The translations under genes were made by a program, and so were the position numbers. A stretch of DNA of 64,000 nucleotides. Source: a bacterium. GTDB taxonomy: Bacteria; Joyebacterota; Joyebacteria; Joyebacterales; Joyebacteraceae. A model generated the notes under the pieces. That model saw nothing but the letters and a program-made list of their open reading frames with translations. It searched no databases and was not told the origin of the DNA. Location of the stretch: positions 232,784 through 296,783 of the forward strand of contig JALGZK010000003.1 in NCBI GenBank assembly GCA_025774935.1, read 5' to 3'. Positions 42,544 through 60,277 of the stretch are shown piece after piece; the first letter of the stretch is position 1, and every line of letters starts with the position of its first letter.

Positions 42544-45500
42544 CTACTTCAAGAGGACCATCTTCAGACGGTGATGAGATCCTCCTGCTTCCATGAAGCA
42601 CAGATAGACGCCGCTCCCCACGAATCGCCCCCCGCTGTCGCGCCCGTTCCACATCACCTCGTGCCGTCCGGGATCGACCTCGTCGTCGACGAGTGTCCGG
42701 ACGAGCCGACCCGTCGGGCTGTAGACGCGAACGGTCACGTGCGAGACTTCCGGGACGTCGAAGGAGATGTTCGTCGCGGGGTTGAACGGGTTCGGCACGT
42801 TGCCAACCAGGCGGTACGACGTCGGACGTTCGTTGGACGGAGCGCAGCCCGTGATCACGGCGGTCAGGTCCTCGTTCTCCGCTCCGCGGAGCGCCGCCCG
42901 CACGAAGCTCAGACCACCGTCGTCCGAGAGGGCGCGGAACCTGAGGACGGCCAGCTCTCCCGGTCCGCCGATCGTCGCCCCGCGCCCGAGGACCGCGAGG
43001 TCGACCCCGACTGTGCCGACACCGGCCCCGTACCAGAAGAAGACCTTGTCCGGAGCCCCGGACAGATCCTCCGAGAGCTCTGCACTCACGAACTCGAGTC
43101 CGCCGGGGTCGAAGGCGACGGTCGTGGACACACCCTTCACCTGAGCCGCGTTCCCCTCGAGAACGACCGCCACCTCCACCTCACCCCCGGCGTCGGTCTG
43201 GTGCTCCGCGAGCGACAGAGCGAGGTCCCGCCCGGCGTCCGGCGCGGGCAGGACCGGGGTCCCTCGCGGCCCCACGACCGAGTAGTTCATCGCGAATGCC
43301 ATCAGATCCTCAAACTCGACGAGACCGTCCGGAAGAGGGAGTCCCTGCGAACTCCCCTCCGGGTTCACCGTCGGCCCCACGTCGCACTGGTTGTCCGGTG
43401 CGGGGGGTGCGATCGCCGCATAGGCGCCACCGAGCTTGTCGATGTCGGGATCGCCCACGAAGCCGTTGTAGCCCCACGACCCCATCGTGGAGGAGACGTC
43501 GCCGAGCCAGTAGTTCGTGGCCGCGCCCCGCGCGGTCTCGTCCGCCGCGCCGTAGTTCCGCGCCGCGTCGTAGCAGAAGGCCTGGTAGTAGTAGATGTTC
43601 CGGTCGGCCACGGCGTCCGTCCAGCTGGTCCCGGAACCGGTGTAGGTCTCGGTCCCGTCGGCATGGTCGCCCGGGAAGAACGAGTCGAAGGAGGGCCAGC
43701 TCGCGACCAGCAGTGGGTACTCCGGATACTCGTCCGCGTCGGACGTTCTCCTGACCGTGACCCCCGCGAGCTGCAAATCCGTTCCCATCGTCCACGACAG
43801 GCCGCACTGCTCGTGACCGGGGACCGCCTCGAAGTCCGTCACGGCCGTCGGTGGCGTGTTGTCCGCCGTGATCGTGTCGCTTCCCGGAGCCGCGGGGTTC
43901 CCGAGGAGGTCGAGGGCCGAGACGGTCACCGACACCGTCCCGTCGGCCGGGGAGCACGCGACGCTCCCGACGGTACCCGTCCACGTCGCGAGGTTGCCGG
44001 CGTACGTGTCCGGGTTGACGGCGGCCCCGCCACCCAGACCCGAGAGATCGGCCGTGATGTTCGAGATCCCGAAGGCCGGGTTGTTGTCGGTGACGGTCGC
44101 CGTGATTCTCGCGGCGTCGCCGTCCTTAATGTAGTCGTCCGTGTGCCCGAGCGTCAGGTTCTCGATGAGAACGCCGGACACGACCGGGGGGATCGGTCCG
44201 TTGATCCTCTCGGCCTCGTTGATGATGATCGAGATGGTGCTCGTGTGCTCCGGGCAGTAGACCCCGAACCCGTCATAGTCGGGGTAGTCGTCGTGGTAGA
44301 GGATCCAGAGGTTCGAGCCGCCGGCCGCCTCGCCCGCCTGTGCGGCGGAGTAGATCTCGTCGTACCAGCCCTGATAGAAGAGGTCGCGCGTCACGAGGGG
44401 CTGCTGCTTCCCGAACTCCTCGAGGATCACCGGCTTGCCGAGGAGGTCGTCGCTGTCGTCGATGTGGTCCCGGATCCAGGCCATCGACTGGGTGTAGTTC
44501 GTCCCCCACCAGTCCGGCCAGATGTGGGCGCATGCGAAGTCGATCGACGACACGTCGTGGTTCGGGATGAAGTCGACCCCGACCCACTGCATCCAGCTGA
44601 CGGGATTGTGGTTCGGCCCGGACGGACCGTAGAACCCCTCAGACCCGGTGGTCACCATGTGCCACGGGTCGATGCCCTTCACGTAGGCTGACATCTCTGC
44701 GATCCACGCCTGCAGGGTCGCGCCCGAGGTGTCCGATTCGCAGCGCGGCTCGTTCGCGAGCTCCCACGCGAAGACGGTGGGGTCCTCCTTGTAGACGCGG
44801 CCGTTGAAGGTGTTCACGCGGTTGAGGACCGTGGAAATGTGGTTCTTGTACCAGGTCCTGCAGTTCGCGTCGGTGTAGAAGTGGTCGTGGCTCGAGGCCG
44901 TGCCGCTCCACGACACGTACTGGTTCATGCCGCCGTAGTCGTCCCAGTTGTTGACGAAGGCGAGAACCACCTTGAGCCCGTTCTGGTCCGCGAGGTGGAG
45001 CGCGTAGTCGAGTCCCTGGAAGACGTACTCCTGGTAGACTCCGGGGGCGGTCTGGAGCGCGTTCCACTGCCCGGCTCCGTCGTTGAAGGCCCACGTCCTG
45101 AGGACGGTGAGCCCCATGTCCGCGCCCTCCGTCTGCACCTCCTCGACGTAGTGCCTCAGGCCGAGGTCGGCCGCGTAGACCATCTGGTAGTAGTTGTTGA
45201 AGCCGGCGTAGAGGTAGGGCTCGCCGTCGAGGACGAAGTGGTTCCCCGAGACGGTCACGAACCCTTCGGGCGGTACGAGGTCCGCGAGTTCGTCGACGTG
45301 TGACGACATGACCGCGAGGGTGGAGCTGTCGCTGTCGTAGACGCTGTACCAGCCCTGGTGCTCGTGGGGCGGGTCGCCGATCCAGTCGTCGCCGGCCGCC
45401 CACAGGCTACCGTACGGGACCGACGGCCGCCCCTCTCCGCCCCACGCCCAGATGTTGTCCCCCACCGCTCCGCCGCCTGCCGCCGCCGAGGCGTGCACCT

Positions 45501-46578
45501 CGTCGTACATGGCCCCGTAGAACGTGTCCTTCCAGACGGTCGACGACGCGGGATCGTAGCTCCCCCCGTCTCTCGCGAGTCCGAACTCCTCCAGAACGAA
45601 CGGCTTGCCGAGAACACCGGACGCCTCCGCCTCGTGCGCGTTGAAGTAGGCGCGAGCGTTCGCCTCCGACGTCGCGTAGGTGCCGCCCGGGTTCGCCGGG
45701 TCGTACCACCCCCAGTTCTGCGGCCAGATGTGTACCGTCGCGTAGTCGATGTCCGGTCCGTCGTGGTTCGCAATGAAGTCGAGCCCGTTCCACGACGGCC
45801 ACGGGGTGTCCCCCTCGCACCCCGTTGTCACGAGGTGGTTCGAGTCGAGTGACTTGATGTACGCCGCGGTGTCGTCGACCCACTGGTTGAAGGCGACCGC
45901 GTTGTTGTTGTACCCGCGCGGCTCGTTGCCGAGCTCCCACGACATGATCGTGGGATCGTCCCGGTACGCGACGCCTGTGTGGGGATTGACGCGGTTGACG
46001 ATGAAGGTGATGTGATCGCGGAAGTCCTGCTTCGCTCCCGCGTTCGAGTAGAAGTCGGACGCGTAATCCTGATAGACGTTCCAGTCGCCGCCCGGCTCCG
46101 GCGGCGGATACGGGATCGGTCCACCACCGTTCCAGCTCACGTACTGCGCCATCCCGCCGGACCACTGCCAGAAGTTCGTGAGGCACATCACCGCGCGGAG
46201 CTCGCGATCGTCCATCGCCTTCAGGAGGTAGTCGAGCCCGTCGAGGACGTCGGCGTCGTAGACGCCGGGGCTCGTCTGCAGTGAAGGGATCATCCGCCAC
46301 GGTTCGGTGTCGGGCCCTTCCGATCCGGCCATGATCCTGAGGTTCGTGACCCCGAGGGAACTCAGGGAGTCGAGCTCGCGCTCGAGACGGGCCCGGTCTC
46401 CACCGGGACCGTTCGAGGCCAGATTGAGCCCGTACCAGAAGTTGACTCCCACGAAGTAGTGCGGCTGCCCTGCCACGGTGAGCGTCAGGCCGTCGACCTC
46501 GACGTAGCCCACGTTCTCCGCCCGGCACGTCCAGCACGGAATCACGAGCAACACAGCCAGAACGAGCGTCAGTCGCAT
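42544..46578 (-). CDS. Two-module GH5 beta-mannanase-like enzyme with dockerin-like, cohesin-like and sorting domains
   Basis: 1344 residues with a signal peptide. Two GH5 (mannanase-type) barrels are in tandem. Module 1 (about 25-430) has the acid/base in SWELGNEPRG (E219) and the nucleophile in PFVLEEFG (E331). Module 2 (about 440-800) has AWELANEPRC (E610) and PVILEEFG (E721). Both look active. Ig-like domains follow (about 800-990). Then come a dockerin-like Asp-rich stretch (CDVGPTVN ... LPDGLVEFEDLMAFAMNY, about 1065-1105), a cohesin-like beta-sandwich (about 1125-1245), and a T9SS-type end (VGNVPNPFNPATNISFDVP ... KMVLLK). It should cleave beta-1,4-mannan outside the cell. GH5 subfamily assignment is by eye. 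Confidence 0.85.
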   Translation of the reverse strand: MRLTLVLAVLLVIPCWTCRAENVGYVEVDGLTLTVAGQPHYFVGVNFWYGLNLASNGPGGDRARLERELDSLSSLGVTNLRIMAGSEGPDTEPWRMIPSLQTSPGVYDADVLDGLDYLLKAMDDRELRAVMCLTNFWQWSGGMAQYVSWNGGGPIPYPPPEPGGDWNVYQDYASDFYSNAGAKQDFRDHITFIVNRVNPHTGVAYRDDPTIMSWELGNEPRGYNNNAVAFNQWVDDTAAYIKSLDSNHLVTTGCEGDTPWPSWNGLDFIANHDGPDIDYATVHIWPQNWGWYDPANPGGTYATSEANARAYFNAHEAEASGVLGKPFVLEEFGLARDGGSYDPASSTVWKDTFYGAMYDEVHASAAAGGGAVGDNIWAWGGEGRPSVPYGSLWAAGDDWIGDPPHEHQGWYSVYDSDSSTLAVMSSHVDELADLVPPEGFVTVSGNHFVLDGEPYLYAGFNNYYQMVYAADLGLRHYVEEVQTEGADMGLTVLRTWAFNDGAGQWNALQTAPGVYQEYVFQGLDYALHLADQNGLKVVLAFVNNWDDYGGMNQYVSWSGTASSHDHFYTDANCRTWYKNHISTVLNRVNTFNGRVYKEDPTVFAWELANEPRCESDTSGATLQAWIAEMSAYVKGIDPWHMVTTGSEGFYGPSGPNHNPVSWMQWVGVDFIPNHDVSSIDFACAHIWPDWWGTNYTQSMAWIRDHIDDSDDLLGKPVILEEFGKQQPLVTRDLFYQGWYDEIYSAAQAGEAAGGSNLWILYHDDYPDYDGFGVYCPEHTSTISIIINEAERINGPIPPVVSGVLIENLTLGHTDDYIKDGDAARITATVTDNNPAFGISNITADLSGLGGGAAVNPDTYAGNLATWTGTVGSVACSPADGTVSVTVSALDLLGNPAAPGSDTITADNTPPTAVTDFEAVPGHEQCGLSWTMGTDLQLAGVTVRRTSDADEYPEYPLLVASWPSFDSFFPGDHADGTETYTGSGTSWTDAVADRNIYYYQAFCYDAARNYGAADETARGAATNYWLGDVSSTMGSWGYNGFVGDPDIDKLGGAYAAIAPPAPDNQCDVGPTVNPEGSSQGLPLPDGLVEFEDLMAFAMNYSVVGPRGTPVLPAPDAGRDLALSLAEHQTDAGGEVEVAVVLEGNAAQVKGVSTTVAFDPGGLEFVSAELSEDLSGAPDKVFFWYGAGVGTVGVDLAVLGRGATIGGPGELAVLRFRALSDDGGLSFVRAALRGAENEDLTAVITGCAPSNERPTSYRLVGNVPNPFNPATNISFDVPEVSHVTVRVYSPTGRLVRTLVDDEVDPGRHEVMWNGRDSGGRFVGSGVYLCFMEAGGSHHRLKMVLLK

Positions 46579-46929
46579 GATGTTCCGCCTTCAGGTGTCG
46601 CCGCTTGAGACTCGTCATGCGGACAGCCGGTGTGGGCGGCCCCGCGCGACAAGGCCCGGCACCGAGCCGGGCCCCTCCGCACGCTGAACGCGCACTCGGC
46701 GTCTTTGGGGTAGGCCCGGATGTCAATGCCGGCCGGGGAGACAGAGCAGAGACAATCCGGGCCTCCCTTAGGACCTTCCCGGAGAGCGGTACGGGAGAGG
46801 TCCACCACATCCTGTCAGTTCATTGCTCGTAAGAACGCTCGATCGCCCCGCGACCTCGCCGTCCGCCGTCGAGACCCAGCCGACTTGACGACGACGGCGA
46901 TGGCGCGCGGCGTTCGCTCCCCCGATCGA
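46579..46929 (-). other. 351-bp intergenic region with a GC hairpin
   Basis: No convincing gene. An 8-bp hairpin (GGCCCGGC, 5-base loop, GCCGGGCC) lies at 46653-46673. A TTGACA at about 46727-46722 has no good -10 partner at 16-18 bases. AAGGCGG precedes the mannanase ATG by nine bases. An AAGGGAGG block without an ATG also occurs on the minus strand. Confidence 0.4.
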
Positions 46930-47565
46930 CTATCGAGCCGTCTCGTCGACCCAGCCCTCGAGCTCGATGGTCAACTTGGGAATCGCGCCCGCGTCCGCCT
47001 CGGACGGATCCTCGGTAGCCAGCCCATCGGGCTGCACCGTGCGAGAACCGGCCGCACGGGCCGATACGTCTGCAACCTCGAGATAGAGCGTGTGCGTGCC
47101 GCGCTGCCCGTTGCCCTGTAGGAACGTCTCGTCCGCGACGACGGGCGACTCATGGACGATCGCACCACCTTCGTCGCGGAGACGGCACACCACCGCTCCC
47201 GACACGAGCGACGGCTTGCCTCCTCCCGGCAGACCGAGTCGCACGTTCAGCCCCCAGTCGGTAGCGTTCGAAGAGACCGTCAGCTGAACGACGTCCCCGA
47301 GCACCTCTCCGTCGTTGCCACCTCGACGGAGGGGCGGCTCCACGGGGCTCTCCACGACGATGACCCTGATCTTGCGCGGGATGAAGAGGCTCATGCCAGC
47401 CTGTCCCTCGTTGGGCGGCTCCGGGTCGCCTTCGACGATCATCGCGCCGCCGAGCAGAACAGCGACGAGGATGCCGGCGAACAGGCAGAACCGGATTCCC
47501 CTCCGAAGGCGGCGGGCGCCCACTCGCTCCGTCCGTCCTCTCATCTTTCTGCGAAGCTCAAGCAT
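46930..47565 (-). CDS. Membrane-anchored subunit-like protein of the secretin cluster
   Basis: 211 residues. A basic N-terminus (RRKMRGRTERVGARRLRRG) precedes one hydrophobic segment (FCLFAGILVAVLLGGAMIV), followed by a ~150-residue all-beta domain. The domain carries VQLTVSSNATDWGLNVRLG, which resembles VYVQSNNALTMNV in the Cys-rich protein at 51014 and VLLASNEMQWALRL in the protein at 52045, and ends IPKLTIELEGWVDETAR. No family is recognised with confidence; the pattern recalls WxL or spore-coat-U-type beta-sandwiches. It is last in the operon, 64 bases after the secretin, with GGGAG before the ATG. Possibly the base or tip of the surface structure. Confidence 0.6.
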   Translation of the reverse strand: MLELRRKMRGRTERVGARRLRRGIRFCLFAGILVAVLLGGAMIVEGDPEPPNEGQAGMSLFIPRKIRVIVVESPVEPPLRRGGNDGEVLGDVVQLTVSSNATDWGLNVRLGLPGGGKPSLVSGAVVCRLRDEGGAIVHESPVVADETFLQGNGQRGTHTLYLEVADVSARAAGSRTVQPDGLATEDPSEADAGAIPKLTIELEGWVDETAR

Positions 47566-47629
47566 CTACTCACTCCCCCTGCTCTCCTTCGCGCCTGACC
47601 TCACCCCTCCCGGACCCGATAGCCCCCTG

Positions 47630-49297
47630 CTACTGAATGAGACTGGCGAGTTCGGTGGGGTGAATCATGATGTGAGGAGTCACGAGCACGAACATCTCGC
47701 TCTCCTCTTTCTCAATGCTGGTGTATCCGAAGAGTCCCCCAATGATCGGAATCCGACCGAGGATGGGGATGCGATTCTCCTCCGTTCTCTCCCTTTCAGC
47801 CAATAGGCCTCCAATGATGACTGATTCCCCGTTGTCAACCCTTGCGGTTGTCTCCACTTCTCGCACACTTGTGACCGGCAGATCGTCGACGCCGAACGAG
47901 CGGACGTCGCTGACCTCGACCGAGATGTCCGTCACGATCTCGGAGGAGTCCATGATGTAGGGTGTTATCCTCAGTGTCGTCCCCGTGGCGATCTTCTCGA
48001 GTGTGTAGTAGGCGTACGTGACCGACCCGCTCAGGAGCGAGTAGTACGCCTCAGTACCCACCCGTATCCGCGCTTCCTGCCCGTCGAGCGTGGCGACGTG
48101 CGGATTCGCCTTCACGCTCGCCCCGCCCGACGCTTCGAGCGCCCGTACCGCGACCCTCACGCTCGCCACCCCTCCGAAGAGATCGACGCCGGTCTGGAGC
48201 AGCTGCCCGATGAAAGCGGAGTCGATGAGTGCCGGCGTCAGCTTGGCGATCCTGAAGATGTCGCCGTTCGTAGTTCCGAGAACGCCCCAGTCGATTCCCC
48301 ACTCCCTCGCCATGTCGCTGTCTACCTCGACGACAAGGGCCTCGATCATCACCTGCTGGGGCGGCCGGTCTATGATCGCGAGGTCCCTGAGGAAGGCCCT
48401 CAGGACCTCGGGCGGTCCTGCCACCGACAGGGTGTTGCCCCCGGTAGCGTCGAATCTGACGTACTGCCCGTACCCCTCCGGCAGCATCTTGAGGGCGTCC
48501 TTGGCGAGAAGGTGCCTGGGGCGGATCTCCACGACCTCGCTCAGGAGCACCGACCCGGGGTCGCCCGGATCCGCAACCCCGACGAGGTAGTACCCGTCCA
48601 TCCAGCGGTAGCCGAGGCCGAGCGGAACAGCGAGTCGGCGCAGACACTCCTCGAGCGGCAGATCGATGAACTCCATTGTGATGTAGCCCCGGAGGCCCTC
48701 CGCTCCGATGATCGGGATTCCCACCTGGCTCGAGATGTCAGCCAAGGTCTGGTAGATGTCCGTCTCGTAGAACACGTTCGTGACGAGAGGATTGGGGTGC
48801 GGATTGCCTGAGACGTACTGCGTCGCGGCGCTCGCTCCCGGCTCCTCGGAGCCTTCGATGCCGAAGGGGGTCCCAGGACCGGATCCGCGGCCGGCCAGCC
48901 CGTGGCTCGTTCGTGTCCGCCAGTCTTCCACGACTGCTGTGAACCTTTCTCTCTCCGGAAGCACCGCCCAGCGTCTCGGGTAGTAGTACATCAGAAGATC
49001 GAGACTGAGAGCGGCCTCCTCTTCATTCCCCAGCGCCAGCTCTGACGCGCCAATGAGGTACAGAAGTTCGGGCGTGACACGGAATGCGGTCGCGCCCATG
49101 AGGCCCGCACGAGCGAGAGCCGCGGCCTCCGCGTACTCGCCCGCCTCGTATCGGGCTGCCGCGTCCTCGAGGTATGCCTCGGAGGACGGGGCTCCTCCCT
49201 CGATGGGCTCCGGTAGCGCATCCTCCGTCTCCGAGGCGCACCCGACGACAGACAGCAGGCAGCCCATCAGGAACACAACGTAGAAGCGATGTCTCAT
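47630..49297 (-). CDS. Lipoprotein secretin (GspD/PilQ superfamily)
   Basis: 555 residues from the ATG at 49297; the frame opens earlier, but only this start gives the lipoprotein signal YVVFLMGCLLSVVGC. Order: a TPR-like region (about 30-105), an STN-type domain (VFYETDIYQTLADISSQVG ... LPLEECLRRLAVPLG, about 175-240), an N1-like domain (RPRHLLAKDALKMLPEGYG, about 255-320), then the secretin barrel with DNGESVIIGGLLAERE and GRIPIIGGLFGYTS near the end. Secretins form outer-membrane gated channels for type II or III secretion, type IV pili or phage. No ATPase, pilin or inner-membrane platform gene is next to it; its neighbours are beta-sandwich subunits and a chaperone-like protein, which is unusual. 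Confidence 0.9.
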   Translation of the reverse strand: MRHRFYVVFLMGCLLSVVGCASETEDALPEPIEGGAPSSEAYLEDAAARYEAGEYAEAAALARAGLMGATAFRVTPELLYLIGASELALGNEEEAALSLDLLMYYYPRRWAVLPERERFTAVVEDWRTRTSHGLAGRGSGPGTPFGIEGSEEPGASAATQYVSGNPHPNPLVTNVFYETDIYQTLADISSQVGIPIIGAEGLRGYITMEFIDLPLEECLRRLAVPLGLGYRWMDGYYLVGVADPGDPGSVLLSEVVEIRPRHLLAKDALKMLPEGYGQYVRFDATGGNTLSVAGPPEVLRAFLRDLAIIDRPPQQVMIEALVVEVDSDMAREWGIDWGVLGTTNGDIFRIAKLTPALIDSAFIGQLLQTGVDLFGGVASVRVAVRALEASGGASVKANPHVATLDGQEARIRVGTEAYYSLLSGSVTYAYYTLEKIATGTTLRITPYIMDSSEIVTDISVEVSDVRSFGVDDLPVTSVREVETTARVDNGESVIIGGLLAERERTEENRIPILGRIPIIGGLFGYTSIEKEESEMFVLVTPHIMIHPTELASLIQ

Positions 49298-49313
49298 CCC
49301 GGCCGTACTCCCT

Positions 49314-50933
49314 TCATCGAAGCCCCTCAGGCGTGACCGTCGCGCTCGTGAAGAGGGCATCTGCGTAGCGAGGTCCGACAGACGAGTCCTTCTGAACGAT
49401 CTCTGCCTCGACGATGAAGTCTCCTTCGTCCACCACCGGGAGGGGCATCCGGAACTCTCGTTTCCCGCCCGGCGCTACGGGTACCCAGTTGTCCTTTCCG
49501 ATCGTCATGGTCGCGATGGCCTGTCCGGTCGTTCTCTTGAGGACGATGGTCCCCTTCACATGCCCCGCCGCCCCTCCGGTGTTGCCGACCGTGAGGACCG
49601 CACCTCCGGGGTTCAGCTCGGGGTCCGACCTGATGAGCTTGAGGCTGACGATGTCCACGTTCGCCTCGCCTCGGGTGGGCGGCGCGATTACGAGCAGCGC
49701 GCCCATGTCGTACAGGGTCTCCCATCCTTCCTGGGACGGATCACCGTCCGCGCTCCCGACGAGACGCACTCCCTTGACTACTGTGGACTCGAGGGTCTCG
49801 ACCCGCTCCATCTTCACCATCGCCCTGAAGAGCGCCGTCCTCTTCGGCCCCACCTCGAGGCTGTCCGGCGAGACCTCGACGCTGAGACCAGGAACGGAAT
49901 CGCCCGACTGCCCGAAGGTCCAGGCGCCGTCGCTCTCCATTCGCACGTCCTCGACCGTCGCCTTGAGCACGATGGACGTGTCCCCGGTGTTCCGCACGCG
50001 GACCGGTACCGATCTCGCCGCCCCGGAAGGGAGAGTCAGCTCGAACATCGACTCCTCCAGCCAGAGGTCGGTGCCCAGCTCGCCCCGGAGGTCCCGGTCG
50101 CTCCCGGCGATGCGATCCCCCAGGCTCACCAGGAACTGCGCCCGGGATTCGCGTCCTCTGCCGAGATCGAGCCTCACGAGTGCCGTGTACGCCCCCGGGG
50201 GGAGCTGTCGCGCGAACGTGCAGTCCATCCGCACGAGCTGCCCGGGATAGATCGCCATGGGGTGTCCTGTAGTCCTGACGGGTATCTCCGCTCTCTCCGG
50301 AAATCCACCGGCTTCCGGGTACAGGAGCACGTCTCCCTTCACGTCGGTCACCCAGACGCCCGTGTTCCGAACGTCGATGGTCAGCGTCGGGCTCCTTGCG
50401 TTCCCGTGGAGCTCCACACCCTCTACGTCGAGCTGAAGCGATCCGCTGGAACGGACTCTGATGAGAAGCTCTACGTTGATGGCCGCAATGAGCTGGGTCA
50501 CCATCGCGGCCGCTGGTTCCTCCGGACGTAGCTTGACGAGAACGAACGCAGAGTACGAGCCGAACGCCCCCTCCGGGCACTTCACGACCAAAGGAACAGT
50601 CTGTCTCTCACCTCCGCTCATCGTGATCTCCGGGAGGGTCTCGATCCACCCCGTCGCTGACCTCACGCCAGCGCCGGAATCGGTCGGGATCTTCGCGCCG
50701 CTCGTCTTCTGGAAGAGGTCCTTGAGCTCGAGGTCGATGACGACTCTACCTTGACCAGTGGCGATGACAGCGAACTCGCCCTGCCACGTCCCCCCGGGAG
50801 CGATGTCGATCTCTATGAACGTCGGACCCACTGCGACCCCGCCCATGTCCGGCCCAGGCTCCTGGGCGCAAGCGTAAGGAGCGAGCAGGGCGATCGCCGC
50901 GATGAACCACAAGACAAGAAGTAGGGCTTTCAT
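49314..50933 (-). CDS. Periplasmic multi-Ig chaperone-like protein
   Basis: 539 residues from the ATG at 50933. Signal peptide LLLVLWFIAAIALLAPYACA. The N-terminal domain runs VAVGPTFIEIDIAPGGTWQ ... VVIDLELKDLFQ ... LPEITMSGGERQTVPLVVKC ... GSYSAFVLVKLRP. This is the pattern of fimbrial-chaperone-like or DUF916-like domains that bind surface beta-sandwich proteins. Further Ig-like domains follow (MFELTLPSGAARSVPVRV; ANVDIVSLKLIRSDPELNPG), giving three or four beta-sandwiches. No transmembrane tail is seen. It lies between the hairpin after the Cys-rich subunit gene and the secretin, 16 bases apart, so a role in guiding subunits to the secretin is plausible. Family assignment is tentative. 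Confidence 0.6.
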   Translation of the reverse strand: MKALLLVLWFIAAIALLAPYACAQEPGPDMGGVAVGPTFIEIDIAPGGTWQGEFAVIATGQGRVVIDLELKDLFQKTSGAKIPTDSGAGVRSATGWIETLPEITMSGGERQTVPLVVKCPEGAFGSYSAFVLVKLRPEEPAAAMVTQLIAAINVELLIRVRSSGSLQLDVEGVELHGNARSPTLTIDVRNTGVWVTDVKGDVLLYPEAGGFPERAEIPVRTTGHPMAIYPGQLVRMDCTFARQLPPGAYTALVRLDLGRGRESRAQFLVSLGDRIAGSDRDLRGELGTDLWLEESMFELTLPSGAARSVPVRVRNTGDTSIVLKATVEDVRMESDGAWTFGQSGDSVPGLSVEVSPDSLEVGPKRTALFRAMVKMERVETLESTVVKGVRLVGSADGDPSQEGWETLYDMGALLVIAPPTRGEANVDIVSLKLIRSDPELNPGGAVLTVGNTGGAAGHVKGTIVLKRTTGQAIATMTIGKDNWVPVAPGGKREFRMPLPVVDEGDFIVEAEIVQKDSSVGPRYADALFTSATVTPEGLR

Positions 50934-50968
50934 GATGTTCTCCCCGGCAGTCTGCACAGCAACTCGGC

Positions 50969-51000
50969 GGCACTGGAGGCTCCGAAGAGCCTCCAGTGCC
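50969..51000 (-). promoter_or_regulatory. Very stable UUCG hairpin after the subunit gene
   Basis: A perfect 14-bp stem (GGCACTGGAGGCTC / GAGCCTCCAGTGCC) closes a CUUCGG tetraloop on the minus strand, 14 bases past the stop of the 51014 gene. There is no T-run. Position and strength suit a 3' stabiliser or partial terminator that makes the upstream subunit more abundant than the downstream assembly genes, as in pilus operons. Confidence 0.65.
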
Positions 51001-51013
51001 AGTCCGTGCTACA

Positions 51014-51745
51014 TCACGGTGACGTGAAGTCGACGTCGAGCCACGTGGTGTAGAGGTCCCCGCCGTCCATCATGCCATTACGATGGATACGACAGAGGAA
51101 CTTGATGGTCCCAAAGACCTGCGGTGCCATGGACCCAGTCGTGTAGACCTGGCTCGCCGGCGCGCAGGGGAACATATGCTGGTTGGGGAAGTCCCCCGCG
51201 CCGCAGATCGTCATCAGGCCACCGCCCGCCGGCCCGCTCAGATAGCAGCCGGGGTTCCCGCAGAACGGGACCGTGTGGCCCGCGACCGGAACGCCGCCAA
51301 TCGTGAACGGACACATCGCGATGGTGAACCACGTCGGGATCGTGCCGAAGGGCGAGTTGAGCGTCCCCGTCAGATCTCCGTTCGTGTGCACGTTCATCGT
51401 CAACGCGTTGTTCGACTGGACGTAGATCACCGCTCCGTCGTCGGACTCGTAGTACATCCCCGTGGGAGCGTACCAGTGGTCACCTGCCCACGGGTACATC
51501 GGGTGCTGGTTGTCAGTGTCCGGGCACTTCGTGTACGCGCCAGTCGGCGACGTGTTGTACCAATCGAACGGCGACTGGTCGGTGAAGTGGATCTCGGCGT
51601 CCTGACGCAGAACCTGGATCCAGCAGTCGATCTGGAGTTCGATCGTGATGTCGCCCTCCGGATCTCCGTCCCACGTGGTGTTGTAGGCCATGGCCGGCAG
51701 TGCGAGCGCGGCCATCGTCATGATTGCCACGAATACCCGCAACAT
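51014..51745 (-). CDS. Small Cys-rich secreted protein, putative major surface subunit
   Basis: 243 residues with a signal peptide (VFVAIMTMAALALPAMA) and start YNTTWDGDPEGDI. The mature protein has eight Cys (CWIQ, KCPD, MCPF, FCGNPGCYL, ICGAG, FPCAP, FLCRIH), many Thr/Gly/Asn and few charges, as in extracellular beta-structured subunits. The segment VIYVQSNNALTMNVHTNGDL matches the 'SN ... L.V' signature of the proteins at 46930 and 52045. It has the best ribosome-binding site in the cluster (AGGAGG ten bases before the ATG) and is followed by a strong hairpin, both typical of a highly made subunit. No family recognised; a spore-coat-U/Csu-like fold is a guess. Confidence 0.65.
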   Translation of the reverse strand: MLRVFVAIMTMAALALPAMAYNTTWDGDPEGDITIELQIDCWIQVLRQDAEIHFTDQSPFDWYNTSPTGAYTKCPDTDNQHPMYPWAGDHWYAPTGMYYESDDGAVIYVQSNNALTMNVHTNGDLTGTLNSPFGTIPTWFTIAMCPFTIGGVPVAGHTVPFCGNPGCYLSGPAGGGLMTICGAGDFPNQHMFPCAPASQVYTTGSMAPQVFGTIKFLCRIHRNGMMDGGDLYTTWLDVDFTSP

Positions 51746-51856
51746 GATAAGGTTTCCTCCTACTCTCGCTGACCGTGGGTGGTCGGTCCGCCGCAGTGCC
51801 CAAACAGGGAGAGGGAGTGTCGTCTCATGCGTCCTCCCCTCGCCGGGGTTGGCGGA

Positions 51857-51937
51857 TCACCGCGGCTCCCTTGCCCGGCCTTCGTTCCTCGGGGAGCCGC
51901 TCACTTCAGCGCGGCATAGGGCCGCGGATTCCCCCAT
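51857..51937 (-). CDS. Putative 26-residue leader ORF upstream of the surface subunit
   Basis: An ATG at 51937 has GGAAGGAGGTG four bases upstream, close to the perfect anti-SD complement. The ORF (MGESAALCRAEVSGSPR..., ends EPR) runs 26 codons to a TGA at 51859-51857. Its RNA can fold into a CGCGGC/GCCGCG hairpin (51910-51926) and a 9-bp GCGGCTCCC/GGGAGCCGC stem (51862-51900). It sits 112 bases before the subunit ATG in a 299-base gap that holds no other gene. It may regulate translation, or be a chance ORF. Confidence 0.35.
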   Translation of the reverse strand: MGESAALCRAEVSGSPRNEGRAREPR

Positions 51938-52044
51938 GGCACCTCCTTCCTGAAGCACCGATCCCGGGCCAGCGGCGATTCGCATCCCCCTCGCTCGCCG
52001 GTCTCCATGATCCCAGGATCAACCTACTGAGTTTCATCGCCGGG

Positions 52045-53076
52045 CTAGCCCGGCGACCCGACCAACAGAACCTGACTGGCGTACGCACCGGGACGGTCTC
52101 CCAGTGTCACGTCGAGCTCCAGTCGGAAGCGCGCCATGAACACGCCGCGCTCCCCGTACCCCGACATGAGGACGTCGCTCTCACCTACCGCCATCCAGTC
52201 ACCGGGTTCTCCGTCCGCGCCGAGCCTCGTCCACTCCACCCTCTCCAGGGGAATCTCGCCGTTCTCGGATACGAAGGGCGTTCCGGATAGCCTGAGCGCC
52301 CACTGCATCTCGTTGCTGGCAAGGAGCACCTCCACGTCGGGCTCGAGGACGTACCGCCCCGGGCCCGGCCCCCCCTGGATCGCGAACTCGGACTGCGACG
52401 CCACCACGAGGCTGAAGCTCCCGACTGACATCTCCACGGGAATGGACACCCCGCCACCACTCCCCGCGACGATCTCCTCAGGTGACGTGGTCCCGAGCCC
52501 TTCGTCCGTGCCGGGAGCGACGAGCCGTGCCGGAGGCGCGAACTCCGAGGACGGTTCCGACGTCCCGGGCGGCCTGACGGGCACGAGCCGAAGAACTCCC
52601 TCTCGGGGTCCCGGCGCGTCCTCCCAGGACGGCCTCACCTGAAGGAGCACCGTGAGTCCCTCTGCGGGCTGGGGCCCTGTGCCCCGCGCGATGATCGGCC
52701 TGTCCACCGCAGGAACGAACTGCCCGCCCGTCTCAGGTGAACTCACGAGCACCGCGTGAGGATCGAGGACGCCCCCCTCTCCTTCCATCCCACCGACCTC
52801 GATGGCGACGGCCCACTCCGGCAGGGGCGATGCTACGGCGAAGGTGAGGAGCCCCTGGGAAGCCGGCACCATCGGGATTCCTTCCTCTGGAGAGAGAGGC
52901 ACCACCTCATCGAGGATCAGCTGATCTGCATCAGGGGTAATCTGCATGGTGATCGTCAGAGGCGTGCCCAGACTTCCGGAGTCCGTCTCGACCTGCACGC
53001 GCCCGGAAGCCATCGTCGTCGGCTGGAGCATCAGCACCAGAGGAACAAGCCCGCACACAACCAGTCGCCAACACAT
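52045..53076 (-). CDS. Large secreted subunit/adhesin-like protein of the secretin cluster
   Basis: 343 residues from the ATG at 53076 (AAGG nine bases upstream); another ATG lies two codons earlier, and the frame is open to a GTG at 53226. Signal peptide MCWRLVVCGLVPLVLML with cleavage near MAS. The N-terminal ~180 residues look beta-rich with a Pro-rich linker (VRPPGTSEPSSEFAPP). The C-terminal ~125 residues form a separate domain, VEMSVGSFSLVVASQSEFAI ... VEVLLASNEMQWALRLSG ... PLERVEWTRLG ... YASQVLLVGSPG. The ASNEMQWALRL part matches the signature in the two other subunit-like proteins. First gene behind the strong promoter at 53385-53413. No known family; possibly tip adhesin. Confidence 0.6.
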   Translation of the reverse strand: MCWRLVVCGLVPLVLMLQPTTMASGRVQVETDSGSLGTPLTITMQITPDADQLILDEVVPLSPEEGIPMVPASQGLLTFAVASPLPEWAVAIEVGGMEGEGGVLDPHAVLVSSPETGGQFVPAVDRPIIARGTGPQPAEGLTVLLQVRPSWEDAPGPREGVLRLVPVRPPGTSEPSSEFAPPARLVAPGTDEGLGTTSPEEIVAGSGGGVSIPVEMSVGSFSLVVASQSEFAIQGGPGPGRYVLEPDVEVLLASNEMQWALRLSGTPFVSENGEIPLERVEWTRLGADGEPGDWMAVGESDVLMSGYGERGVFMARFRLELDVTLGDRPGAYASQVLLVGSPG

Positions 53077-53384
53077 TGTCATCCGCCTTCTCGCTAGTGA
53101 CGCGTTTCGTGCTTGCTGCCCTCCACTCCGCACGCCGGTCCCTCCCTTCTCAGTGGATTCCCCGCCGCGCGGCGAACTCGCACGCGGTGGCGATCTCCCG
53201 CTCTTGTGAAAGCTCTCGGGGTTCACGACATCCCGCTCCTTCCGCGCCTCTCATGACACGCGCGCACGGAGTTATGCAGCGGACGATTCCGCCATTCGAC
53301 CAAGGTGCATTCCATCGTGCTTGTCCATCCGCGATGTGAGATGCCCCGGGTCACGCTACCATGACGATGTTGAAAGGATGTGTC
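53077..53384 (-). other. ~300-base mRNA leader of the secretin cluster
   Basis: From the predicted start near 53378 to the ATG at 53076 the leader is unusually long. It holds a good AAGGAGCGGG followed by a start-stop triplet pair (ATG TCG TGA, about 53234-53226); the GTG overlapping that stop opens an arginine-rich extension of the downstream gene that is unlikely to be used. No known riboswitch was recognised. Confidence 0.4.
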
Positions 53385-53413
53385 ATTATATAACGAGCGC
53401 AGGATGCCGTCAA
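53385..53413 (-). promoter_or_regulatory. Strong sigma70-type promoter of the secretin/subunit cluster
   Basis: On the minus strand TTGACG (53413-53408) and a perfect TATAAT (53390-53385) are 17 bases apart, preceded by an A/T-rich UP-like stretch (GCAAAATATTC). It is the best promoter in the window and lies in its most A/T-rich patch. Confidence 0.8.
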
Positions 53414-53594
53414 GAATATTTTGCTAACCGGATAGAGCCAGAAATGACGGTCTGTTCACTGAGTAAACGCTCATGATCCCACATATTGACCGTGCGCTCA
53501 CCCACATTCCCAATGTTCTGCCGCTTGAACGCTTCCCCCTTGCGCTCTTGGCCCCTTAACCGCCCGTTTCGCCTGCTCGTGTCGCCTGAAACGC

Positions 53595-53628
53595 AAAGCG
53601 GGAACAGCCTTCGGGCTGTTCCCGCTTT
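53595..53628. terminator. Terminator after ppdK (15-bp stem, tetraloop)
   Basis: AAAGCGGGAACAGCC pairs perfectly with GGCTGTTCCCGCTTT around TTCG (CGAA on the minus strand). It starts 42 bases past the ppdK stop and the flanking A/T bases make it work in both directions. It separates ppdK from the next promoter. Between it and 53413 (about 180 bases) nothing else is seen. Confidence 0.85.
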
Positions 53629-53669
53629 CCTTTCAGCTCCGCCGCCGTGGCGAATCTGTCACTCGGTGT

Positions 53670-56351
53670 CTAGTGGAATCCCCTCATCCGTGCCTTCAGA
53701 ACCGCGTGGGACGCAGCGAGGCGGGCTACTGGCACCCGGAACGGCGAGCAGCTGACGTACGCGAGGCCGGCATGGTGGCAGAAGTTGATCGAGTCCGGGT
53801 CGCCCCCGTGCTCTCCGCAGATGCCGATGTGGAGATCCGGGTTGGCCTGGCTGCCCTTCTCGGCCGCCATCTTGACGAGCTGGCCGACGCCCCGCTGGTC
53901 GAGCGACTGGAAGGGGTCTCTCCGGAGGATGCCCTGCTTCACGTACTCCTTGATGAACGGACCCGCGTCGTCCCGGCTGTAGCCGTACGCCATCTGGGTC
54001 AGGTCGTTCGTTCCGAACGAGAAGAAGTCCGCGTGCACCGCGACCTCATCCGCCGTGAGCGCCGCGCGCGGAATCTCGATCATGGTGCCGATTCGGATGT
54101 CGACGCTCGCCTTCTCACGCGCGATAACCTCGCGTGCCACGCGGTCGACCAGCTCCCGGAGGATCGAGAGCTCCTTCGCCTCGCCGACGAGCGGGATCAT
54201 CACCTCGGGCTTGACGTTCACGCCTCGCTTCGACAGCGCGCAAGCCGCCTCGTAGATCGCCCTCGCCTGCATCTCGTAGACCTCCGGGTACGTGATCCCG
54301 AGCCTGCACCCGCGGTGTCCGAGCATCGGGTTCGACTCGCGCAGCTCCTCCGCGCGGGCCTTCATCATCTCGGCGTCCTTGCCGAGGTCCGCCGCGAGCT
54401 GACCGATCTCCTCGTCCGGCGGGATGAACTCGTGGAGTGGAGGATCGAGGAGCCTGATCGTGACCGGGAGACCCTCCATGGCTTCCAGGATCCCCTCGAA
54501 GTCTTCCCGCTGGAACGGGAGGAGATTGCCGAGCGCCTCGCGCCGTTCCCCCTCGTCGCTCGCCATGATCATGGCTCGGATGTGTTTGATCCGCTCCTCG
54601 CCGAAGAACATGTGCTCCGTCCTGCAGAGACCGATTCCCTCGGCGCCGAAGCTCCGGGCCCGCGCCGCGTCCTGAGGATTGTCGGCATTCGTGCGGACGC
54701 CGAGCTGCCTGAACTCGTCCGCCCACTCGAGGAGCGTCGCGAAGTTGCCGGAGAGTTCCGGATCCACGGTCGCCACCTGGCCGAGAATGACCTCGCCGGT
54801 CGCGCCGTTCAGAGTGACCCAGTCACCTTCCTTGACGACCGTCCCGTCGACGGTGAAAGTCCTGGCGGCGTAGTCGATCTTGATGTCGCCCGCGCCCGCG
54901 ATGCAGCACTTCCCCATCCCGCGCGCGACGACCGCGGCGTGAGACGTCATGCCGCCCCTCGCAGTCAGTACGCCCTGCGCTACGTTCATTCCGTCGATGT
55001 CCTCCGGCGAGGTCTCCTCGCGCACGAGGACCGTCTTGCTCTTCTCCGGATCGCCACTCTCCGCCCAGCCCATGGCGTCCTCGGCCGTGAACACGACTCG
55101 CCCTACGCCCGCACCTGGAGAAGCGGGGAGTCCTTTCGTCAGGACGTCGTAGTCCGCCGCGGGGTCGAGGCGCTTGTGGAGAAGCTGCTCGATCTGATCG
55201 GGCTCGACCCTGAGGACTGCGGTCTTCCGGTCGATCAGGCCCTCGGCCTCCATCTCGACGGCGATCCTGACGGCAGCCTCGGCCGTGCGCTTGCCCGTCC
55301 GGGTCTGGAGCATCCAGAGCTTGCCGTCCTGGATCGTGAACTCGATGTCCTGGGTGTCGGTGTAGTGGCGCTCGAGCTTCTGTCGAATTGTCTCGAGCTC
55401 CCGGTAGATCGGCGGCATCGTCTCTTCGAGCGACTCCTCCGCTCCCTTCTTCTTCTGCGCGAGGTTGATCGGACGCGGAGTTCTCACGCCGGCCACGACG
55501 TCCTCGCCCTGCGCGTTCGGAAGGTACTCGCCGTAGAAGACTCGCTCGCCCGTCGCGGGGTCCCTCGTGAATGCGACCCCGGTCGCGCTGTCGGTGCCCA
55601 TGTTCCCGAAGACCATCGCCTGCACGTTGACCGCGGTGCCCCAATCGTCGGGTATCTCGTTCAGTCTCCGGTACGAGATCGCGCGCGGGATGTTCCACGA
55701 ATCGAAGACCGCCCGGATCGCACCCCAGAGCTGCTCCATGGGGTCGTCGGGGAAGTCCCTGCCGGAGAGCTCCTTCACCTTCGTCTTGTAGTCGGCCGTG
55801 ATGCTCTTGAGGTCATCCGCGTCGAGGTCGAGGTCGTGCCAGGCGCCCTTCTCCTTCTTCCGGGCATCGAGGATCGCGTGGAACGCCTCGATGTCGAGCC
55901 CCATCACGACGTCGGCGTACATCTGGATGAGACGCCTGTAGCTGTCGTAGACGAAGCGCTCGTCGCTCGTCTTCTTGATGAGACCCGCGGCCGTCTTCTC
56001 GTTGAGCCCGATGTTCAGTACGGTGTCCATCATGCCGGGCATTGATACCCGCGCACCGGAGCGAACGGAGAAGAGGAGCGGATTCTCTGGGTCGCCGAAT
56101 CCCGTGCCCATGGCCGCTTCGACCTTCCTGATGGCCGCCGTAACCTCGTCCTCGAGCCCATCCGGAAACACCCCGTCACGCTCCATGAAGTACGTGCAGA
56201 CCTTCGTCGAGATCGAGAATCCCGCCGGAACCGGGATCCCGAGGTTCGTCATCTCGGCGAGATTGGCGCCCTTGCCGCCGAGGATGTTCTTCATCTCCCC
56301 GCGACCGTCGGCTTTCCCCTCTCCGAAGAAGTAGACGCGCCTGTTAGGCAT
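53670..56351 (-). CDS. ppdK: Pyruvate, phosphate dikinase
   Basis: 893 residues, full length for the family. The N-terminal ATP-grasp domain starts VYFFGEGKADGRGEMKNILG with GGKGANLAEM. The swivelling phosphohistidine domain has GGMTSHAAVVARGMGKCC (catalytic His471). The C-terminal PEP/pyruvate barrel has GLCRTEHMFF, GHRGCRLGITYPE, FGTNDLTQM and ICGEHGGDP. It interconverts pyruvate, ATP and phosphate with phosphoenolpyruvate, AMP and pyrophosphate in the cytoplasm, serving gluconeogenesis or PPi-linked glycolysis. It is a single-gene unit: own promoter at 56446-56474, AAAGGAG six bases before the ATG, and a strong terminator after the stop. Confidence 0.97.
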   Translation of the reverse strand: MPNRRVYFFGEGKADGRGEMKNILGGKGANLAEMTNLGIPVPAGFSISTKVCTYFMERDGVFPDGLEDEVTAAIRKVEAAMGTGFGDPENPLLFSVRSGARVSMPGMMDTVLNIGLNEKTAAGLIKKTSDERFVYDSYRRLIQMYADVVMGLDIEAFHAILDARKKEKGAWHDLDLDADDLKSITADYKTKVKELSGRDFPDDPMEQLWGAIRAVFDSWNIPRAISYRRLNEIPDDWGTAVNVQAMVFGNMGTDSATGVAFTRDPATGERVFYGEYLPNAQGEDVVAGVRTPRPINLAQKKKGAEESLEETMPPIYRELETIRQKLERHYTDTQDIEFTIQDGKLWMLQTRTGKRTAEAAVRIAVEMEAEGLIDRKTAVLRVEPDQIEQLLHKRLDPAADYDVLTKGLPASPGAGVGRVVFTAEDAMGWAESGDPEKSKTVLVREETSPEDIDGMNVAQGVLTARGGMTSHAAVVARGMGKCCIAGAGDIKIDYAARTFTVDGTVVKEGDWVTLNGATGEVILGQVATVDPELSGNFATLLEWADEFRQLGVRTNADNPQDAARARSFGAEGIGLCRTEHMFFGEERIKHIRAMIMASDEGERREALGNLLPFQREDFEGILEAMEGLPVTIRLLDPPLHEFIPPDEEIGQLAADLGKDAEMMKARAEELRESNPMLGHRGCRLGITYPEVYEMQARAIYEAACALSKRGVNVKPEVMIPLVGEAKELSILRELVDRVAREVIAREKASVDIRIGTMIEIPRAALTADEVAVHADFFSFGTNDLTQMAYGYSRDDAGPFIKEYVKQGILRRDPFQSLDQRGVGQLVKMAAEKGSQANPDLHIGICGEHGGDPDSINFCHHAGLAYVSCSPFRVPVARLAASHAVLKARMRGFH

Positions 56352-56576: not shown

Positions 56577-57878
56577 CTACCGGGTTGGCACCGTCTCCTT
56601 CTCACTCTCGCGTTCCGGAGCGGCCTCGGGCGCGGGAGCGTCCTGCCCCGGACCGTCGGAGGCCGCCTCGACTGCGGTCTCGTCCGCGGAGTCCCTTGCG
56701 ATCCGGCGGTACTCGACCTCCCGGCGGAGCTGCGCGGTGATGATCTGACGAAGGGTCGGCTCCTCGTCCTCGCCGTCGTCCGCGTCACGTGCCCCCAGGA
56801 GGTAGGCGAACTCCTGCCCGGGTGGACGCTCTGTCGTGACGGCGTTCTTGCGCTGCTGCTCGAAGATGACCCGCGCGACGAGGGCCGCCACGGCGTAGCT
56901 CCCGAGGATGTAGACGAGTCCGTGGGGAGCGACGAGCCCGAGCATCTGGCCTCCGAAGAAGACGGTGACTCCCCAGAGGACGAGAACGGTCATCTTCGGA
57001 TGGAGCCCGAACCGGATGAGGCGGTGGTGCACGTGCGACCTGTCGGCCGTCATCATGCCGCGCCGGGCCCGGGCGCGCCGCAGCATCGTCGTGACGACGT
57101 CGAAGGCCGGAACGACCATACAGGCGGCGACGACGAGGAGCGCGGTGCTGGCGGCGTCGTGGCGGGCCCCGATGATCGCGCCGCCACCCAGGAAGAACCC
57201 GAGGACCATGCTCCCGCCGTCCCCCAGGTAGATGTTGCCCTTCCGGAAGTTGTGGAGGAGGAACCCGAGCGAGCTGCCGAGGAGCCCGGCTGCCACTATA
57301 TAGAGGAGGGGCTGCCCGGAGAGGACGCCCGCTGCGAAGAGGCCGATCGCGGCGATCGCGGAGATTCCGCCGGCCAGTCCGTCCAGGCCGTCGATCAGGT
57401 TCACGGCGTTCATGAACCCCACCAGCCAGAACGCGGTGATCGGGTATCGGATCCAGCCGAGCCAGACCGACGGGCTGTCGATGAACCGAAAGCGCTCGAT
57501 GCCCACCCCGCCCGCCGTCACTCCGACCGCGACGACCGTTTGTGCTATGAGCTTCACCCACGGCCTCAGGTTGACCCGGTCGTCGATCATGCCGAGCACG
57601 AGGACCGCCGATCCTCCCGCCAGGAGAACGACGAGCTCCCTCGCCACCTCCGGCGACACGCCGGGGCACAGCCGCTGGGTCAGGAGCAAGGAGACGGCGA
57701 CCGTCCCGAAGATCACGAGACCGCCGGTCGTCGGGACCGGCCGCGCCCGCGTCCGCCGCGAGCTGGGATGATCGGCGAGGCGGAGCTTGAGACCGAGCCA
57801 CGCCGCTGGCCGCACCAGGAGCCACGAGGCGCCGAGCGCGAAGACGAAGATCAGGAGCGAGCACGCGAACGGATTCAG
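56577..57878 (-). CDS. WecA/TagO/MraY-type undecaprenyl-phosphate sugar-1-phosphate transferase
   Basis: About 433 residues if begun at the CTG at 57878. A GTG at 57815 is the next start but would lose most of the first transmembrane helix (FACSLLIFVFALGASWLLV). An ATG at 57882 is out of frame, so a non-standard start or a sequence error is likely. Family motifs are intact: VPTTGGLVIF, MIDDRVNLRPW, NLIDGLDGLAGG, YLGDGGSMVLG and the HxxHR loop SHVHHRLIRFG. About eleven helices and a charged cytoplasmic tail of about 90 residues (GEDEEPTLRQ..., AAPERESEKE) that is longer than usual. It loads the first sugar phosphate, typically GlcNAc-1-P, on the lipid carrier and so starts the polysaccharide region. 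Confidence 0.88.
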   Translation of the reverse strand: MNPFACSLLIFVFALGASWLLVRPAAWLGLKLRLADHPSSRRTRARPVPTTGGLVIFGTVAVSLLLTQRLCPGVSPEVARELVVLLAGGSAVLVLGMIDDRVNLRPWVKLIAQTVVAVGVTAGGVGIERFRFIDSPSVWLGWIRYPITAFWLVGFMNAVNLIDGLDGLAGGISAIAAIGLFAAGVLSGQPLLYIVAAGLLGSSLGFLLHNFRKGNIYLGDGGSMVLGFFLGGGAIIGARHDAASTALLVVAACMVVPAFDVVTTMLRRARARRGMMTADRSHVHHRLIRFGLHPKMTVLVLWGVTVFFGGQMLGLVAPHGLVYILGSYAVAALVARVIFEQQRKNAVTTERPPGQEFAYLLGARDADDGEDEEPTLRQIITAQLRREVEYRRIARDSADETAVEAASDGPGQDAPAPEAAPERESEKETVPTR

Positions 57879-58019
57879 ACATCACCTCACGGGCGGGGCC
57901 CCATCGCGCGGGGCCAGAGTGAAACCACGTCCAGCGAAGCTACCACACGCACGCGGCGTTGGGAAGGCTGGTGCATGACAGTTTGAGTAGGTGGGGTCTT
58001 CGCGGGGAGCGTGGGTGTC

Positions 58020-58958
58020 TCACCGTACGAGGGGGTTCCTGAGGCCGAACGCCAGGCGCCGGGCAGATGCCGTGAAACGACCGCGGAGACGGGCCTCGTA
58101 GCCGCGCCAGCGGCGGGCCGTGTCGCGGAGGGCCTTCGTCCCGGACATCTCGTGGACGGTCTCGAGACCGAGGATGTGTTCGCGGTGCGTCTCCTGGTCG
58201 GCGAGCCGCTCGCCGCTCCAGGTCTCGTCGAGGTCGTGCCGCGACCAGTACCCGGTGTCGTAGCGGTCCAGCGAGAAGACGAGCCCGCGGACGCAGCGCT
58301 CGAACAGGTCGGGCGCCCCCTCCTCGGACATCGCGCGCGCGACGTCGAAGATCGCCCAGAGGGCTCGCAGGTGCCCGCCGAGCGCCAGCGACGGCCGCCG
58401 CGGCATCGGGTGTTCCTCGATGAAGGCGAGCGTGGCGAGTCCGGCCTCGTCGCCCGTGTCTCCGATCTCCCGGAGGAATCCGCCGTCCTCGACGGTCGTG
58501 CAGAAGCCCGGGAATGCGACACGCACGGCCTCGTCTGCCCCGTCGAGCCTTACCAGCGAGGCCGCCCGGACGAGGGCACTGACGCACTCCGCGTGCACGG
58601 CGCCCCCGAACCACCCGTGGCCCAGTTCTCGCCTCAGCGCTCGCGGCGGGTCCGGGACCGACCAGCTGGCGAAGCTCCCGGGGACGCTCTCCTGGCTTCC
58701 GACGAGCCACCGGCACGCCCTCTCGAAGCGCTCGCGGCGGCCAGAGCTCCCGCCCTCAAGGTAGATCTCGAGGTTCCCGAGCGCATAACGCGCGACGCGC
58801 CTCGGTGATTCCACCAGGGCGCCGTCGTTCGATCTTGCGAGGGGCAGACCCGCGTCGTCCACGTCGCGGCGAGGGTCGCTCCACTTTGAGTAGTCCAGGT
58901 AGTAGCCGCGGGGGGACTCGAGGTCGATGTGCTTCCCCCGCATCACCCCACGCTTCAC
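58020..58958 (-). CDS. D-glucuronyl C5-epimerase family protein
   Basis: 312 residues from a GTG at 58958 with GGAGG eight bases upstream. Family features are the start GYYLDYSKWSD, the repeated alpha/alpha-toroid helices with YALGNLEIYL, the DGGFLREIGDTGDEAG segment, and the C-terminal block LDRYDTGYWSRHDL ... HREHILGLETVHEMSG. In animals the family epimerises glucuronate to iduronate in heparan sulfate; bacterial members are mostly uncharacterised. No signal peptide is present, so it may act on a precursor in the cytoplasm. It lies between the initiating transferase and a sugar aminotransferase gene, suggesting a uronic-acid-containing surface glycan. Confidence 0.75.
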   Translation of the reverse strand: MKRGVMRGKHIDLESPRGYYLDYSKWSDPRRDVDDAGLPLARSNDGALVESPRRVARYALGNLEIYLEGGSSGRRERFERACRWLVGSQESVPGSFASWSVPDPPRALRRELGHGWFGGAVHAECVSALVRAASLVRLDGADEAVRVAFPGFCTTVEDGGFLREIGDTGDEAGLATLAFIEEHPMPRRPSLALGGHLRALWAIFDVARAMSEEGAPDLFERCVRGLVFSLDRYDTGYWSRHDLDETWSGERLADQETHREHILGLETVHEMSGTKALRDTARRWRGYEARLRGRFTASARRLAFGLRNPLVR

Positions 58959-59024
58959 GGGCGGTCCCTCCGGTTGTCTCTCCCGGCGCGCTCCCCGGCA
59001 GCGCCTCCCTACAGCCCGGCAACG

Positions 59025-60137: not shown

Positions 60138-60223
60138 CGATGTCCGCCTTTCGTCCGTGCATTCAGAGTCCCGCAATCCCGCGACGCGATGACGCGCTCC
60201 GCCGTCACGGGCACGTCCCCCAT

Positions 60224-60252: not shown

Positions 60253-60277
60253 CGGCATTCCCGGCCGCCCGTTCGGG

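Follow-up and report, generated by a model that had tools for sequence, protein, structure and literature searches.

The fact that a secretin gene directly follows the gene of a fimbrial-chaperone-like protein, in a cluster that encodes no usher, has led us to wonder by which route the subunit-like proteins encoded beside them would leave the cell. The cluster lies in a 64,000-nucleotide stretch, hereafter the window, of contig JALGZK010000003.1 from a bacterium of the Joyebacteraceae (assembly GCA_025774935.1), and consists of five co-directional genes in succession on the minus strand (46930-53082). P1 (52045-53082 from its ATG; the longest open reading frame, ORF, starts at GTG 53226) encodes a secreted subunit-like protein of two domains, P1N and P1C; P2 (51014-51745) a putative major subunit with a predicted beta-sandwich; P3 (49314-50933) a four-domain chaperone-like protein in which a DUF916/PapD-like unit of two domains occurs twice in tandem; P4 (47630-49297, with its ATG 16 bp past the P3 stop and a longest ORF from 49360) a lipoprotein secretin; and P5 (46930-47565) a small subunit-like protein, either secreted or anchored, with homology to P1C. 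Secretins have been known as gates of ATP-driven machines, and ushers as the gate and at once the assembly catalyst of chaperoned fibres. We consider it likely, with a rough probability of 0.6, that this cassette encodes a chaperone-secretin pathway in which chaperoned subunits would leave through P4 and not through an usher.

The argument is carried by the comparison of chaperone loci across genomes. Profile searches with P3 recovered relatives in 9 of 20 genomes of the window's own phylum, 15 of 147 of the phylum of genome G042 and 5 of 80 of the phylum of G041, i.e., 29 of 247, and 30 loci were examined in these 29 genomes. Four-domain chaperones (512-560 aa; broken in G014) occupy 16 loci in 15 genomes, all of which possess a cassette-type secretin; its gene lies within the cluster at 15 of the 16 loci and directly downstream of the chaperone gene at 14, with a spacing of -4 to +45 bp where measured (12 loci). 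In G010 the secretin gene stands upstream of the chaperone gene with a subunit gene between the two, and in G143 it is found on another contig than the chaperone. By contrast, two-domain chaperones (236-290 aa; in G011 an ORF of 348 aa, or 306 aa from its likely start) are encoded at 14 loci in 14 genomes, none with a linked secretin and none with a cassette-type secretin in the genome, and each of these clusters contains a protein of 598-1107 aa, encoded directly downstream of the chaperone in 12 of them (-4 to +9 bp) and separated from it by one other ORF in G162 and by two subunit genes in G011. Fisher's test on the linked secretins yields 2e-7, a value that is no independent probability since the loci are related. 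A profile of cassette secretins (A11, built from nine of them) scored at least 438 bits in 7/7 four-domain genomes, of which G010 is also among the nine, and at most 197.3 bits in 14/14 two-domain genomes; in the other eight four-domain genomes the cassette secretin is in place.

The large proteins of the two-domain loci share C-terminal transthyretin-like/SdrD_B domains, recognised by Pfam in 11 of 14, by hhalign at L112 and L113 and by HMM at L111, and their middle regions hardly align beyond eight close members; the C-terminal domains of ushers have a transthyretin-like fold. In G001, which belongs to the window's genus, the protein after the two-domain chaperone matches the usher family PF00577 with 6e-5 (22.5 bits, where the cut-off is 27.1; 0.001 in a search of the whole genome). 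No PF00577 match was obtained in the window's own genome at E 0.001, nor any above the cut-off in 18 further genomes, where G001 alone gave one, below it. By position, size and this one weak match, the large proteins are putatively usher-like, a term to be taken as a label and not as a demonstration. There is strong comparative support that the secretin sits in the slot of the usher, and it does so together with a doubled chaperone. The sequence-only reading had proposed that a secretin replaces an usher; the division of the loci, with a large protein beside two-domain chaperones and a secretin beside four-domain ones, speaks for the replacement; the formation of a fibre and the passage through the secretin are inferred.

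That reading had also taken the five genes for one system, and the set is indeed kept among relatives in the family and across phyla. Within the own family (20 genomes, the whole sample of the phylum), P2 occurs in six genomes, each of which has the full set of five genes in unaltered order; at locus L015 (G014:C330), on a short contig, the reading frames of P1 and P3 are broken, by sequencing error or decay, and the contig ends within P5. All five genes are present in G041 (L028), of a second phylum, and in G208 (L110), of the same phylum as G041, where the order has changed to P2-P3-P4-P1-P5; G042 (L029), of a third phylum, has P1-P4 only. Since the gene set outlasts reordering, it can be regarded as a working set. 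When the genome contigs were queried with the P2 alignment, seven loci were recovered; the single P3 protein as query gave no match on these contigs and none in 21 genomes outside the family. Two protein searches, in which only the candidates sharing most words were scored, returned at least 13 and at least 12 hits.

The description of P3 as a fimbrial-chaperone/DUF916-like protein has held well, the protein being modelled as two PapD-like units. P3 consists of a two-domain unit duplicated in tandem, and in the AlphaFold model either half resembles the fimbrial chaperones of the PapD/Caf1M type as well as WxLIP; among the fold matches listed (VIA), 36 of 50 are chaperones of chaperone-usher systems and two are WxLIP. 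The predicted structure ends in a strand with a short tail and has no C-terminal membrane helix. Compared with WxLIP (DUF916 + DUF3324), the two-domain unit is alike in predicted fold and weakly so in sequence.

P4 contains the secretin domain PF00263 (E 7e-41) and falls below the NCBIfam cut-offs of every named type listed, including GspD, PilQ, SctC, and MshL. Its lipobox cysteine (49238-49240, minus strand; C20 from ATG 49297, C41 of the longest ORF) is invariant in alignments A4 and A11, and the earlier assignment as a lipoprotein secretin is thereby confirmed. The lipobox pattern is found in all seven secretins examined of the window's branch and in G010, and is absent from four of the five secretins of G135, G136, G140, and G142. 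HxcQ is a self-piloting liposecretin in which, as in P4, the N-terminus of the secretin itself is lipidated; unlike P4, it is part of a type II system. TPR models match the N-terminal region of three of nine P4 family members, the window's P4 not being one of them. Because the pilotin of RcpA, the secretin of the Tad system, is described as a TPR-containing lipoprotein, TadD (PMC10499894), P4 may pilot itself to the outer membrane.

How P4 relates to the other secretins of the same genomes was addressed in a tree that was midpoint-rooted for drawing only and comprised neither named GspD or PilQ references nor the cassette secretin of G143 and the third secretin of G041. A branch supported at 100/99 separates 15 cassette secretins, from 14 genomes in three phyla, from 14 others that come from eight of the same genomes, so that the cassette secretins stand apart from the others of these genomes. 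One non-cassette secretin of G042, on a very long branch, falls nearest the cassette group (88/86). An earlier tree of 24 rows, which included a G017 fragment almost the same as the G005 secretin, supported the split at 99/97. Seven of the eight genomes surveyed carry two secretins besides a single one of the cassette type; in G017 the additional ones are a single other secretin and the fragment. It is worth mentioning that this fragment, 338 aa and practically identical to the G005 cassette secretin, lies on a 4.1-kb contig (G017:C332; L061, L070) and possibly reflects contamination. In the window's own genome, one of the two other secretins is accompanied by PilM and PilO, and some 1.7 kb separate the other from a PilM gene; three matches to the T2SSE family (PF00437) were found, all on contigs other than that of the cassette (C28, C33), and no assembly ATPase is linked to it.

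The putative subunits are related in part. P1N and P1C are homologous (hhalign 92%, 6e-7, with none for the reversed control), and so are P1C and P5 (91%, 1e-6), a kinship that a second hhalign comparison supports (alignments A7-A8, 79%, 1.6e-5). A common origin of P1, P2, and P5 is not claimed, as P2 had no hhalign match to P1 or P5. A short signature had been noticed in all three proteins from the sequence alone. It occurs at the places indicated and is conserved, as SNEMQWALRL in P1C (52288-52317, minus strand; [TSN]N-x(2,3)-W in 17/17 P1 sequences), SNATDWGLNVR in P5 (47239-47271, minus strand; [TS]N-x3-W in 6/6 P5 sequences), and SNNALTMNV in P2 (51389-51415, minus strand; [STA]N-x2-[LM]-x-[MVI]-x-V in 56/64 P2 sequences, window included), but the kinship by profile extends to P1C and P5 only. 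Both P1 and P5 keep a W-x-[LV] motif, and the Pfam WxL domain has no match in P1, P2, or P5. P5 opens with a long basic start and a hydrophobic segment that, judged by eye, could be either an anchor or a signal peptide.

P2, whose family numbers 59 proteins found including the window's own, is predicted by AF2 as a beta-sandwich (pLDDT 91.9, pTM 0.81), with fibre subunits, TasA and CanA included, as its nearest folds in the PDB. The reading of all three as subunits finds partial support in a P2 model close to fibre subunits and in the homology of P1C and P5, P2 standing outside that homology at the profile level. Near the mature N-terminus, the stretch ITIELQI (residues 33-39; 51629-51649, minus strand) resembles a donor strand: residues 33, 35, 37, and 39 are hydrophobic in 100, 100, 91, and 100% of 64 sequences, against 0-14% at residues 34, 36, 38, and 40, and in the monomer model DSSP assigns no strand to residues 33-39, and the stretch has no partner there. 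The eight cysteines that had been singled out in P2 are not a trait of the family, in which only Cys41, Cys74, and Cys194 are widely kept (58, 50, and 60 of 64). As for the two-domain loci, P2 had no hhalign match to their usual subunits, and its HMM gave weak matches only, to L104 (0.001) and to L092 (4e-5), which is a four-domain locus. The P1 HMM matched single subunits at three two-domain loci (L100, 2e-6; L101, 2e-4; L102, 0.003), and P1C reached a probability of only 36-50% against the profiles of these three subunits.

It is tempting to hypothesize how such a pathway would operate. The doubled PapD-like P3 would hold the beta-sandwich subunits P2, P1, and P5 in the periplasm, and the dedicated secretin P4, whose gene takes the position of the putative usher-like protein in related clusters, would pass them to the outside. 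Because the N-terminal alternating strand of P2 has no partner in the monomer model, the subunits may join by donor-strand exchange, with P2 as the main subunit, P1 as a tip or adhesive subunit, and P5 as a small ending or anchoring subunit. The strict pairing of the doubling with the secretin suggests that the second chaperone unit could bring two chaperoned subunits together, which is otherwise the job of the usher. The lipid anchor and the TPR-like region might spare P4 the need of a separate pilotin on its way to the outer membrane, and there are further cases of pilotins that are TPR-containing lipoproteins. A more specific version, to which we would give somewhat less than even odds, is that a two-headed chaperone holds two subunits and drives donor-strand exchange, that a secretin free of ATPase and platform is only the gate of the fibre, and that the cassette arose from a chaperone-usher-like cluster through exchange of the usher-like gene for a secretin gene and doubling of the chaperone. 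A secretin in the position of the usher beside a doubled chaperone makes it possible to test whether a secretin can do without a motor in the inner membrane, and how the job of an usher divides into assembly and passage; one chaperone family would moreover link the WxL clusters of monoderms, chaperone-usher fimbriae, and secretins.

Seen against known systems, the cassette resembles chaperone-usher systems (Csu, CupE, Caf1, Fim) in the PapD-like units of P3, present twice according to the predicted fold, in the predicted beta-sandwich of P2 with its N-terminal alternating strand, in its organisation as one operon, and in encoding no energy source; it differs from them by the lack of an usher, by a secretin gene straight after the chaperone gene, and by the tandem four-domain chaperone. 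TasA/TapA fibres and archaeal fibres or tubes, which are usher-free and rely on donor strands, are alike in that the nearest folds of P2 include TasA and CanA, and unlike in that they need no crossing of an outer membrane through a secretin; in TasA filaments, donor-strand complementation with TapA as chaperone has been described (PMC10151520). In the open PMC papers to which our literature search was limited, no description of a fibre system combining a secretin with a chaperone was found. With type II secretion, type IV pilus, and Tad systems, the cassette shares the outer-membrane secretin and, for Tad, a TPR-like lipoprotein region that recalls TadD but is fused to the secretin, whereas it has no ATPase, platform, or pilin (inspection of the five translated genes disclosed no class III pilin or pseudopilin), and its secretin is separate from the others of the same genomes. 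One may nevertheless argue that P4 is an extra channel serving a type IV pilus or a machine of the type II kind whose genes lie elsewhere and which would supply the energy, and that the neighbours of P4 are its substrates or accessories. All eight cassette genomes searched, out of 15, possess ATPases of the PilB/GspE family and at least one other secretin, and therefore an inner-membrane platform may exist in trans. However, two further secretins are already available in the own genome and in six of the seven other genomes searched, and the cassette secretins both separate from these in the tree and track the four-domain chaperone, which makes an extra channel unlikely.

We also regard as improbable that the cassette represents a diderm relative of the WxL cluster of monoderms (WxLIP, i.e., DUF916-DUF3324, with small and large WxL proteins), in which P3 would be a WxLIP-like scaffold, P1 and P5 WxL-like display partners without a fibre, and the secretin an exporter of single subunits. 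The P3 unit is alike in predicted fold and weakly in sequence, and the W-x-[LV] motif of P1 and P5 may recall the WxL partners. Yet the cassette stands in a diderm context, P3 is doubled and modelled without a membrane helix at its C-terminus, and chaperones of chaperone-usher systems match it equally well; P1 and P5 escape the Pfam WxL model, there is a secretin, and the published WxL description, as far as consulted, contains nothing equivalent to the additional subunit P2 and its strand of donor type. Hardly credible, finally, is a chance assembly of functionally unrelated neighbours, for which one could invoke the draft state of genomes in many contigs and the separate secretin of G143, since the set is kept across three phyla, reordered in G208, and tightly spaced. 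A chaperone-secretin pathway remains our preferred reading of the cassette.

The cassette region was further compared within one genus (G010, G013, and G017), where a swapped content of the locus is observed. In G010 (L048, G010:C230), the chromosomal slot that houses the cassette of the sister genomes contains a strongly diverged chaperone/secretin cassette with a Cys-rich, unrelated subunit. The upstream flank encodes a 374-aa protein 83% identical to that of G013 and a 441-aa protein 89-90% identical to those of G013 and G017, with a gene between them showing 72-73% identity in the antisense frame, and the downstream flank protein is 94% identical to that of G017 and only 33% to that of G013. 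Inside the slot, identity drops to 36% for the secretin and 24% for the chaperone, which is matched by profile comparison over 481 aligned columns (99%, 6e-18), and the subunit has no match. Such diversification within a fixed slot would fit a surface-exposed product. Relatives of the flank genes of G010, G013, G017, G006, and G005 occur in the window itself, some 40 kb off the cassette (5785-9400, minus strand), where they look by eye like a pair of the dihydropyrimidine-dehydrogenase type.

As to the layout of the locus, the sequence-only reading had placed the five collinear genes behind one strong promoter and had found no pilin, assembly ATPase, platform, or usher among them, and both statements proved correct. 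A sigma-70-like promoter, TTGACG-17-TATAAT (53385-53413, minus strand), agrees with 11 of 12 consensus bases and is the sole match within 46560-53700, where shuffled sequences average 0.7 at the limit of 9 of 12. Neither inspection and Pfam for P1-P5 nor a scan of ten further ORFs of the window disclosed an ATPase, platform, pilin, or usher; above cut-off, Pfam recognises among P1-P5 only the secretin domain of P4. Judged by eye, P1, P2, and P3 begin with a signal peptide and P4 with a lipobox.

A few observations concern neighbouring genes. At L097, L101, L102, and L104, the two-domain clusters are bordered by a response-regulator-like gene and a small receiver-like one, arranged alike in all four as seen by eye. 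In the window, the cassette is followed by a gene for a 1344-aa glycosyl-hydrolase-like protein with a C-terminal FlgD_ig domain (42544-46578, minus strand), the first 430 residues of which have relatives downstream of the cassette in G013, G017, G006, and G005 as well. An LVIVD-repeat protein of 1066 aa, also with a C-terminal FlgD_ig domain, is encoded at 37682-40882 (minus strand), and genes of polysaccharide biosynthesis (glycosyltransferases, a DegT aminotransferase, and a polysaccharide-synthesis membrane protein) extend over 56577-63883 on both strands.

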